NCBI GenBank assembly: GCA_019358855.1 | Contig: JAHHII010000010.1 | Location: 62,001 to 126,000, forward strand | Origin: Timaviella obliquedivisa GSE-PSE-MK23-08B | Lineage (GTDB): Bacteria > Cyanobacteriota > Cyanobacteriia > Elainellales > Elainellaceae | Length of the DNA stretch: 64,000 nucleotides | Reading direction: 5' to 3' | Shown here: piece after piece, positions 12,600 through 57,786 of the stretch | Layout of the letters: each line of letters begins with the position of its first letter | Numbering within the stretch: position 1 is the first letter of the stretch | Program-made: the position numbers and the translations under genes | The notes under the pieces: generated by a model | The model's input: only the letters and a program-made list of their open reading frames with translations | Database searches by the model: none | Told to the model about the DNA's origin: nothing

Positions 12600-12866
12600 A
12601 TGCCCTGGTTTGTCAAAATTGAAAAAGGCATTGTCAGCAAACCGACTTTTGACCAGTTTGTCCCTGCCCACAAAGACTATGTTAAAAACTTAATTGCGAA
12701 CGGGCACCAAGCAAAAACCGGATACTGGAAAGAATTCGGCGGCGGAATGCTGTTGTTTCAAGCCACGGACTTAGCAGAAGCCAGGGCGATCGCTGCTCAA
12801 GATCCGCTCATTAAAAATGGCTGTGTTGAGTACGAACTACACGAATGGTGCATTGTCATCGAATGA
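12600..12866 (+). CDS. YciI-like protein
   Basis: An 88-residue protein with the ferredoxin-like YciI/YCII fold: a first strand (WFVKIEKGI), a helix with His in FDQFVPAHKDYVKNLIANG, a GGGMLLFQA strand, and the AEARAIAAQDPLIKNGCVEYELHEW segment that is typical of the family's C-terminal half. YciI proteins are small enzymes or stress-associated proteins without a fixed role. It starts 69 bp upstream-to-upstream from the divergent amine oxidase and lies before smpB. Confidence 0.78.
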   Translation: MPWFVKIEKGIVSKPTFDQFVPAHKDYVKNLIANGHQAKTGYWKEFGGGMLLFQATDLAEARAIAAQDPLIKNGCVEYELHEWCIVIE

Positions 12867-12931: not shown

Positions 12932-13396
12932 ATGAGCGATGACGACGGATTCAAAATAGTGGCGGACAACCGTCAAGCCCGATTTCTTTACGAAATCCTC
13001 GAAACCTACGAAGCCGGAGTCGAACTCCGAGGCACTGAGGTCAAATCAATTCGTCATGGCAAAGCAAACCTGCGCGATGGCTACGCCCTCATTCGCAAGG
13101 GCGAGGCATGGCTTCATAATGTCCATATCTCTCCTCACCAAACTGCCAGCCAAGTTTTTAACCACGAGCCCCTCCGTACCCGCAAACTTCTCTTACATAG
13201 CAAAGAAATCAGCAAGCTAGTCAGCCAGGTAGATCAGCAAGGACTCACCGTCGTGCCGCTCAAAATGTACCTTAAACGCGGCTGGGTTAAACTCACGATC
13301 GCCCTAGTTCGAGGCAAAAAACTTCATGACAAACGAGAAGACCTGAAGCGCAAACAAGAAACCCGAGAAATTCAGCGTGTTATGAAAAATAACTAG
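12932..13396 (+). CDS. smpB: SsrA-binding protein SmpB
   Basis: SmpB carries tmRNA to ribosomes stalled on broken messages. The 154-residue protein has the conserved core [29 protein letters not shown], the NLRDGYALI segment, HNVHISPH, and the lysine-rich C-terminal tail ([14 protein letters not shown]) that enters the mRNA channel. The ATG at 12932 follows an SD-like CTGGAGA and matches the usual N-terminus; a frame opening at 12908 would add eight atypical residues. The tmRNA gene ssrA is not seen nearby. Confidence 0.93.
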
Positions 13397-13504
13397 TCAC
13401 TTAACTAGTCAATGAGTGGGTGATGGGGGGGCGATCGACAAGGCTTAAATGGTTAACTGACGCTCAGAGAATGCAACAAAATATTGCGAATTCGATTGGC
13501 TAAT

Positions 13505-13522
13505 GTTACATTTCTTTACAAG
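13505..13522 (+). promoter_or_regulatory. HLR1-like RpaB binding site before the sRNA candidate
   Basis: GTTACATT and TTTACAAG are separated by two bases. This fits the HLR1 consensus (G/T)TTACA(T/A)(T/A) N2 (G/T)TTACA(T/A)(T/A) except for the last base. HLR1 is bound by the response regulator RpaB in cyanobacteria. A -10-like TACAGT lies at 13526-13531, so the box covers the -35 region, a position expected for repression in low light (inference). Confidence 0.6.
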
Positions 13523-13537
13523 GTCTACAGTATGTCC

Positions 13538-13655
13538 CTATCCGGCTTGGCGTGATGCAAATTCATTAACACCGTCAGTTAGGGCATTCAATAGTCCTGA
13601 TTATCTCCTTCCAACACAGCGAATCGAGCCAGCCTACGTGAAGGCTGGCTTTTCA
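13538..13655 (+). ncRNA. psrR1: Putative photosynthesis-regulating sRNA (PsrR1-like)
   Basis: Between smpB and the RRM gene lies an untranslated unit with its own parts: an HLR1 box (13505-13522), a -10-like element (TACAGT), about 85 nt of sequence, an unpaired pyrimidine stretch CTCCTTCC (about 13606-13613) able to pair with ribosome binding sites, and a strong intrinsic terminator at 13626-13653. The transcript would be about 115-120 nt. PsrR1 of Synechocystis is about 131 nt, is high-light induced, is controlled by RpaB through HLR1 and acts by pairing near the start codons of photosystem I and phycobilisome mRNAs. The match is to this architecture; I cannot align it to known PsrR1 here. 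The 5' end is estimated from the -10 element. Confidence 0.5.
13626..13653 (+). terminator. Intrinsic terminator of the sRNA candidate
   Basis: GAGCCAGCC pairs with GGCTGGCT across an 8-base loop and is followed by TTTTC. The stem is nearly all G-C. It lies about 230 bp after smpB, too far to be needed only for that gene. Confidence 0.75.
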
Positions 13656-14054
13656 CTAAGTATCTTGTAACCCCAAGTTAAATTGCACTAACTGTCACCG
13701 TTTTTCTCTCAAACTCCTAAAGGTGTGTCATGGTTTGAAAAGAAGGTAAGAGTTTTAATTAAATCTTGGGTAAATCCGGTTTGAGATCACAATGCCGTGA
13801 TAGCTTAATGAATGGCGAAGACACCTTAATGATGTTTACAATGTCGATCGCACTAAACCTACTTATTTAAGCGACATTGGGCAATCATCATTCCACAGTA
13901 TTTATCTTGCAAGTTTGTAGGTAGGATTATCAAAGTTGGTTAAGCAGCGACACAGCCTACCGATAAAGAGGGTCAGATCCGGTTCCTCTACTGATGTAGG
14001 GAACATAATTTTCCAAATCGTTTATCTCTTTTAAGCCTCTGGAGGTTTTTTATA
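13656..14054 (+). promoter_or_regulatory. Long upstream/5' leader region of the RRM gene
   Basis: About 400 bp without a gene. It holds an inverted repeat CAATGTCG...CGACATTG (about 13839-13880), a small hairpin AGAGG...CCTCT (about 13967-13990), and an SD sequence CTGGAGG just before the ATG at 14055. Long structured leaders are known for cold-regulated cyanobacterial rbp genes, so part of this may be an mRNA leader. No promoter could be fixed with confidence. Confidence 0.4.
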
Positions 14055-14510
14055 ATGTCTATTCGCATATACGTGGGTAACTTGCCCAAAGAGTTTGAGC
14101 GTGAGGAATTAGAGGCTGTGTTCGCCGAATTTGACGAATCTGCATCTACTAAGGTGATTACCGATCGCAAAACTGGTAAATGCCGTGGTTTTGGTTTTGT
14201 CACCGTCAAAACTGACGAACAAGCTGATGTTCTCATCGAAAAGTTCAATGGCTTTATGTTCAAAGACACCGAACTAAAACTTGAGAAAGCACTCCCTCGA
14301 GCTAAAGGTAGCGAAGAAGGTGCCCCCGCAGCAGCTCCTGCGGGCGGCGGTTCAGCCAAGCGCAGCAAATCATCTAATAGCGGCAACAAATCCCGCCGCC
14401 CCGCGACTGCCGAGCCTACCGAGTCTGAATCTGTTCAGCCCGATCCTCGCTGGGCACAGGATCTAGAAAAGCTCAAGCAACTGCTAGCCGCTCAAACGAC
14501 CAATTCTTGA
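14055..14510 (+). CDS. RNA-binding protein, single RRM (Rbp3-like)
   Basis: A 151-residue protein with one RNA recognition motif at residues 2-80. RNP2 is IYVGNL and RNP1 is KCRGFGFV. The tail is not the glycine-rich tail of cold-induced RbpA proteins. It is basic and Ala/Ser-rich and ends in a conserved-looking helix DPRWAQDLEKLKQLL. Length and tail resemble Synechocystis Rbp3, which helps keep photosystem mRNAs at the thylakoid membrane; that link is by analogy. The gene has a good SD and a strong terminator at 14641-14690. Confidence 0.82.
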   Translation: MSIRIYVGNLPKEFEREELEAVFAEFDESASTKVITDRKTGKCRGFGFVTVKTDEQADVLIEKFNGFMFKDTELKLEKALPRAKGSEEGAPAAAPAGGGSAKRSKSSNSGNKSRRPATAEPTESESVQPDPRWAQDLEKLKQLLAAQTTNS

Positions 14511-57403: not shown

Positions 57404-57526
57404 GGCTATCTCCGAAAATGTCTACCCTACTGCTTTCGATTTTGCCTGAATTCTCAGTCAAAGGCGATCGGTTTTCCGCCTGAGGTGCAGAAGATGAGAA
57501 TAAGGTTGCAAGTTTGTAACAATTCT

Positions 57527-57544
57527 GTTACATTGATTTACATA
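57527..57544 (+). promoter_or_regulatory. HLR1 (RpaB) site before hli
   Basis: GTTACATT-GA-TTTACATA is a full match to the HLR1 consensus bound by RpaB. It is centred about 41 bp before the hli start codon. RpaB control of hli genes by this motif is well known in cyanobacteria. Confidence 0.8.
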
Positions 57545-57576
57545 AGGAAACACATAAAAAATATCTGGAGAAATTT

Positions 57577-57786
57577 ATGAGAAGCGGCAGCATCCTGGAC
57601 GAACAAGGCAAAATGAACAACTTTGCGATCGAGCCTGAAATGTATGTTGATGCAGTTGCGCGGACTGGATTTACTGAATACGCTGAAAAATTAAATGGTC
57701 GTTTGGCAATGCTTGGCTTCGTGACCATGGTGGCTTTAGAAGCAGTATCGGGTCATGGATTGGTGACTCTACTACAAAGCCTGTAG
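57577..57786 (+). CDS. hli: High-light-inducible protein (one-helix Hlip)
   Basis: A 69-residue single-helix member of the light-harvesting superfamily. The chlorophyll-binding motif is FTEYAEKLNGRLAMLGFVTM (about 43-62), with the ExxNGR pair that binds chlorophyll and salt-bridges helices in a dimer. Hlips protect photosystem assembly and dissipate energy under high light. The start ATG at 57577 follows CTGGAGAAATTT, a good ribosome binding site. An HLR1 box precedes it, and an intrinsic terminator is at 57866-57905, so it is a single-gene unit. Confidence 0.92.
   Translation: MRSGSILDEQGKMNNFAIEPEMYVDAVARTGFTEYAEKLNGRLAMLGFVTMVALEAVSGHGLVTLLQSL

Follow-up and report, generated by a model that had tools for sequence, protein, structure and literature searches.

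Between smpB and a gene for an RRM protein of the Rbp3 type, the genome of Timaviella obliquedivisa GSE-PSE-MK23-08B carries a small unit composed of an HLR1 box, a core and a terminator (13505–13653; coordinates are those of the window, i.e. the whole stretch of 64,000 nucleotides that was analysed, and all features of this locus lie on its plus strand). The question is whether this unit is the gene of PsrR1, as a first-pass annotation of the same DNA proposed, a leader of the downstream RRM gene or an sRNA gene of some other family. Among the sRNAs through which the RpaB-dependent light response operates, PsrR1 is the best known; it acts on genes of photosystem I and antenna. Strong induction after a shift to high light and pairing with the ribosome-binding regions of psaL, psaJ, chlN and cpcA are characteristic of it. 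According to the data described below, the unit is probably a free-standing sRNA gene under RpaB control and belongs to a family conserved among cyanobacteria, which is distinct from PsrR1 and would repress its targets by core pairing. The kind of sRNA is already known, while the family, with its RpaB-type light promoter, is unnamed and absent from Rfam. At the level of sequence it is characterized by a predicted hli-type promoter, an unpaired core (TCTCCTYCCAACACAGC here, with AACACAGC almost unchanged across members), an intrinsic terminator and, in most loci, an adjacent Rbp3-type gene; control by RpaB, induction in high light and pairing with targets are suggested by these features.

Predicted promoter of the small RNA gene

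The HLR1 box GTTACATTTCTTTACAAG at positions 13505–13522 has one mismatch to the consensus KTTACAWW-N2-KTTACAWW quoted in PMC13421787. By themselves such matches are unremarkable, as the whole window contains four of them with at most two mismatches versus 1.5 expected. Comparison of homologous loci was more informative: the best upstream match reached at least 13/16 in 51 of 59 loci (a set that includes some close relatives) and in only 4 of 58 downstream control stretches, leaving eight of the 59 loci without a good HLR1. The box named in the first-pass annotation is therefore retained, and it is regarded here as a predicted RpaB site.

The annotated −10 element, TACAGT at 13526–13531, was rejected, since it is absent in the nearest relative and is not conserved. 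Conserved spacing favours another position: the tetranucleotide TTGC was found 21–23 nt upstream of HLR1 in 43 of the 50 homologous loci where a simpler HLR1 pattern detected a box (eight others gave none), so that the −10 element was placed at TACATT (13507–13512), inside HLR1. Together with the −35 element TTGCGA (13484–13489) and a spacer of 17 nt this implies a transcription start near position 13518, and the HLR1 box, overlapping both the −10 element and the start, would then occupy approximately −13 to +5. According to the review PMC13421787, HLR1 located between −38 and +23 means repression by RpaB, which is relieved in high light.

The same layout was registered in the window's own hli gene, where a perfect HLR1 (57527–57544) is preceded by TTGC at a distance of 21 nt and followed by a gene encoding a 69-aa Hli-type protein (57577–57786, PF00504). 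Based on this similarity, the sRNA promoter is naturally understood as one that would be freed from RpaB in high light. RpaB-repressed promoters of the hli type share with it both TTGC 21 nt before HLR1 and the location of HLR1 over the −10 element, but drive a protein gene instead of an RNA with a terminator. The hli promoter and gene (57506–57786) may also serve as an internal positive control for RpaB in the Timaviella genome. As a separate observation, the −35 region at 13470–13489 (TGYAAMRAAATRTTGC in many homologues) resembles an imperfect HLR1 in inverted orientation, and the promoter may therefore hold two RpaB sites. A simple consensus scan of the locus listed neither promoter nor terminator; the latter was missed due to its short T run.

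Conserved core, terminator and the neighbouring RRM gene

From the promoter spacing, the terminator and a match to the covariance model described below, the sRNA gene was assigned to positions 13518–13653, with a predicted 5′ end and a length of about 136 nt. A 55-aa open reading frame (13503–13670) was considered as a coding alternative and discarded, as it begins upstream of the presumed RNA start. The minimum free energy fold of the segment 13537–13655 has −34.6 kcal/mol (z −2.40), and 2 of 200 shuffled sequences folded as well. In this fold the conserved core TCTCCTTCCAACACAGC (13604–13620), which alignments also single out as the probable pairing region, is unpaired, including the stretch CTCCTTCC (13605–13612), which the first-pass annotation had noticed as an exposed anti-ribosome-binding element. 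Motif TCTCCTYCC was strongly conserved within the first alignment of 23 loci, and in a larger set AACACAGC was kept in 68–70 of 70 aligned members, whereas the preceding C-rich half varies.

The terminator (13627–13653, AGCCAGCCT...AGGCTGGCTTTT), likewise present as annotated, consists of a stem AGCCAGCCT/AGGCTGGCT followed by TTTT. Seven of its eight pairs showed two-sided changes (33 cells, 21 of them coming from a single pair). The whole modelled structure, with nine of 12 pairs changed on both sides (40 cells), scored better than all 500 shuffles, in an alignment that had been fitted to the same structure. The small core hairpin of the model is unsupported by covariation, and one of its pairs is broken in 41 sequences.

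Homologous loci were collected by a DNA search of 146 genomes including the own one, 28 of which matched. In 23 loci the core, the terminator and an HLR1-like box, in most cases about 100 nt upstream, were found together, and these were aligned; six further places turned out to be short unrelated stretches. A covariance model made from the 23-locus alignment (hereafter R1) matched 171 of 388 genomes of the class at E ≤ 0.05 and 144 of 388 at E ≤ 1e-4, training genomes included and with the reservation that E-values of such models are rough. Within the own family a match was obtained in 32 of 36 genomes, the four misses being 68–88% complete, and in the own genome the only match is the locus under study (G000:C10:75587-75658). 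Weak matches (E 0.003–0.04) appeared in the small-genome family f2. A scan with an exact pattern gave 44 stretches, of which 38 are cyanobacterial by title, with hosts including Phormidesmis, Leptolyngbya, Elainella, Moorena and Trichocoleus, and six come from outside cyanobacteria. None of these six contains the terminator pattern, which, however, also missed six cyanobacterial loci matched by R1 (L074, L079, L084, L088, L099 and L103). Of the elements that the first-pass annotation had combined in one small unit, HLR1, the exposed stretch and the terminator hold as one small RNA gene.

Rfam gave no matches at gathering score in the window, and a permissive scan of positions 13380–14060 returned chance-level matches only. 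A description of the family was not found in the open-licence literature searched; Georg 2014 (PsrR1), outside that scope, could list these loci. The motif of Yfr1 is ACUCCUCACAC. Like the present family, the Yfr1/Yfr10 sRNAs, named in PMC6778093, have a short conserved unpaired C-rich motif, but the motif is different, and the permissive scan of 13380–14060 gave no Rfam match to such a family.

The upstream neighbours of the gene are smpB (12932–13396, PF01668), which is retained at the majority of own-family loci, and a gene for an 88-aa protein with a YCII domain (12600–12866, PF03795). Downstream lies the gene of a 151-aa protein (14055–14510), in which the first-pass annotation recognized an RRM protein like Rbp3. 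It was right in this respect: cluster II proteins (Rbp3 type) are defined in PMC9333190 by RRM and a C-terminal PDPRWA motif, and the translation contains both PF00076 and PDPRWA. Such a gene follows on the same strand, at a distance of 308–931 nt (median 473), in 44 of 57 loci. This frequent arrangement is what one would expect if the RNA served the RRM gene as a 5′ leader or an attenuator, with its terminator controlling read-through into rbp3. Yet in 13 of the 57 loci no RRM gene was found downstream (L097 having only 66 bases left there and L004 about 1.2 kb), and all 13 keep the core and terminator together with an upstream HLR1 match of 14–16/16, even though the simpler HLR1 pattern gave none in two of them (L105 and L106). 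Neighbours of these loci, seen for 12 of the 13, vary between lineages. Since HLR1, core and terminator are kept in the absence of the RRM gene, the RNA appears to be its own unit, and its role as a leader is very unlikely. Pairing of the core with the rbp3 leader of the window is poor (−9.0 kcal/mol). The 5′ part of the RNA seems to be dispensable, because in the short variants L024, L068 and L096 the HLR1 box lies just 41–42 nt from the core, and only core and terminator are kept.

Linkage to the RRM gene could also mean that the RNA mainly binds protein, with a core that is recognized by Rbp3 or some other protein instead of acting as an antisense seed, and the position of the most invariant part, AACACAGC, beyond the anti-ribosome-binding stretch fits such a function. 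The persistence of the family at 13 of 57 loci where no RRM gene adjoins it and strong pairing of the core with some photosystem II leaders (see below) argue in the opposite direction, making this explanation quite unlikely.

Comparison with PsrR1

Several properties of the free-standing sRNA gene do resemble PsrR1 (SyR1 of Synechocystis 6803 and relatives). The promoter is of the same HLR1/RpaB type, with an identical distance between −35 and HLR1 in five of nine psrR1 loci. Sizes are similar (about 130 nt, 131 nt according to PMC6202907, versus the predicted 136 nt), and in both RNAs an unpaired C/U-rich stretch precedes the terminator. One may therefore suppose that the sRNA is an orthologue of PsrR1 whose sequence has changed past recognition in those lineages that show no other PsrR1. 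Other features differ. The core of PsrR1 is CCTTCCATTGACATTGAGTTCTCCTAG versus TCTCCTYCCAACACAGC in the present family, the terminators are dissimilar, and the Synechocystis gene occupies the fabF–hoxH spacer, while members of the family lie elsewhere.

To locate PsrR1, SyR1 primers from PMC2662882 were used. One of them matched three genomes with at most two mismatches, and in one of these loci (L126) its site lies between ORFs recognized as FabF and HoxH, i.e. in the published place. BLAST with this PsrR1 gave matches in 10 of 291 genomes: four of the genus to which L126 belongs, two from family f32 (G135 and G154) and four weak ones. At E ≤ 0.5 a covariance model of PsrR1 (R2) matched nothing in the own genome, not even the sRNA locus, for which the first-pass annotation had suggested just such a scan. 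The same result means that a clear PsrR1 gene elsewhere in this genome was not found at that threshold, with a model that is weak on divergent copies. The presumed PsrR1 of S. elongatus (L175, assigned by this R2 match, HLR1 and length rather than by coordinates) reached just E 0.04, so a divergent copy in the own genome could be missed. Among 36 genomes of the own family R2 gave 12 with a match at E ≤ 0.5, none of them strong; the best one (E 0.0055 in G024) follows a small ORF, an arrangement also seen for some copies in f32. The lack of a strong PsrR1 in the own family is in line with divergence of an orthologue, and so is the sequence CTTCTCCTCCTCGACTCAGC of L175, which vaguely resembles the core. 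When R1 was applied without filters to PsrR1 loci, matches at the PsrR1 place appeared in 11 of 13, all weak (6–13 bits, E ≥ 0.14 with the best at 13 bits); they, too, speak for an orthologue.

Genomes containing both genes speak against an orthologue. In 30 hand-chosen genomes R2 gave good matches in eight f31 genomes lacking R1 and also in f32, and five f32 genomes (G117, G135, G154, G207 and G333) have R1 matches at E ≤ 1e-4 and R2 matches at E ≤ 3e-7 at different places, so that PsrR1 and the sRNA are there separate genes. Among genomes with R1 from eight further families, none of eleven gave an R2 match below 0.05, again with the limited sensitivity of this model to divergent copies. When eight PsrR1 sequences were scored against a matrix built from the core, none exceeded its shuffled versions (both positive controls had themselves contributed to the matrix alignment). 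Within 750 nt upstream of Rbp3-type genes the core was seen in three f32 genomes and not seen in three genomes of the Synechocystis type and one of the S. elongatus type. The poor pairing of the sRNA core with the own psaL leader, described below, also disagrees with PsrR1. Thus size, HLR1 layout and the anti-ribosome-binding stretch noted in the first-pass annotation stand, identity with PsrR1 does not, and a PsrR1 orthologue diverged to such an extent is unlikely.

Apart from this comparison, PsrR1-like elements with terminators were observed directly after an ORF for a small membrane protein of about 56 aa (L169, L185, L186 and, near position 1500, L141). The ORF resembles MYTT...NNYA.EP..YYA and has 114 aa in L141. 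Several R2 matches per genome were registered in f32. Perhaps the elements following the small ORF are relatives of PsrR1 derived from 3′ UTRs.

Candidate targets and possible role

Pairing of the free-standing sRNA was estimated from duplex energies between its 34-nt core and leaders (−50 to +30), accessibility being ignored. The own leaders belonged to 434 ORFs, taken from the window and from 320 kb of a single contig, and target genes were recognized by eye with partial verification in Pfam. The psbK leader ranked first of 434, psbE and psb28 shared rank 14 and apcF was at rank 16, and with the reversed core these four dropped to ranks 115–202. Ranks of other photosynthetic leaders were low: apcE 190, hli 238, psaL 270, IsiA-like 350, petC 372 and psaC 374. 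Taken together, the ten genes of photosynthesis paired no better than others (one-sided p 0.20, or 0.39 without psbK). The psbK leader (G000:C3:24084-24112) contains, 20 nt ahead of the start codon region, the sequence GCTGTGTTG, which is complementary to CAACACAGC of the core.

Leaders of relatives were compared with the same 434 own-genome leaders. For psbE, 12 of these paired equally well or better in the case of G001 and none in that of G003; for psbZ of G009 there was none, and for the cytochrome c6-type gene of G030 there was one. For apcF, psaL and cpcA of relatives the 55 leaders of the window were borrowed as background. Leaders of the apcF type fell within the best three of 55 in four of four genomes, those of the cpcA type ranked 45, 2 and 5 of 55 in three genomes, and psaL was the best of 55 in G015 and G005 (two of eight relatives' genomes) and not in the other eight of ten leaders. 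Hence, of the targets proposed by the first-pass annotation (psaL, psaF, cpcA), the own psaL is a poor partner, although psaL pairs very well in two of eight relatives' genomes and apcF-type leaders do so in four of four. In a test fixed in advance, psb leaders within a further 800 kb of the genome were expected in the top 15%. A motif list picked out a single psb gene there, psbU, which is too small a sample to weigh; counted from the first ATG, its leader stood at rank 91 of 871, and an apcA-type gene of the same sample was at rank 277.

A search of 36 genomes for the 16-nt complement of the core with one mismatch gave at least 154 sites versus at least 65 for the reversed control, antisense sites of the RNA itself included. 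Nearly all of the 40 listed sites that were viewed lie inside coding sequence, and two recurrences, one in a DnaK-like ORF (G017, G011) and one in another ORF (G027, G032), look like protein conservation. For the pattern combining core complement, ribosome-binding site and ATG, 38 sites were counted, while the reversed control gave 19; the 38 are distributed over 19 of 36 genomes, and four of them lie at the RNA's own antisense. By eye, nine of 30 viewed loci precede plausible starts (L275, L281, L283, L284, L287, L288, L292, L295 and L297), and three of the nine are photosynthesis genes: own psbK (L288), psbZ of G009 and the cytochrome c6-type gene of G030. Pairing thus hints at photosystem II rather than photosystem I, the side on which PsrR1 acts, and the hint is post hoc, as psbK, psbZ and the cytochrome first surfaced in the complement-pattern search.

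Based on these data one can propose that in low light RpaB bound to HLR1 would block transcription of the sRNA, whereas in high light it would leave the box, allowing synthesis of the RNA of about 136 nt. The core would then pair with ribosome-binding regions and repress translation, as PsrR1 does, with psbK, psbE, psb28, psbZ and apcF as candidate targets selected by pairing alone. A more specific version, in which the sRNA serves as a photosystem II-side counterpart of PsrR1, repressing these five genes in high light in lineages where PsrR1 is undetected and having Rbp3 as a linked partner, is tentative and rather doubtful.

If the interpretation as a separate RpaB-controlled family is true, it would represent a second widespread sRNA with the promoter logic of PsrR1, present in lineages without detected PsrR1. 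The sRNA network of RpaB would be extended across much of the phylum, perhaps aimed at photosystem II, and the linkage to the Rbp3-type gene would provide a testable case of a bacterial sRNA associated with an RRM protein.
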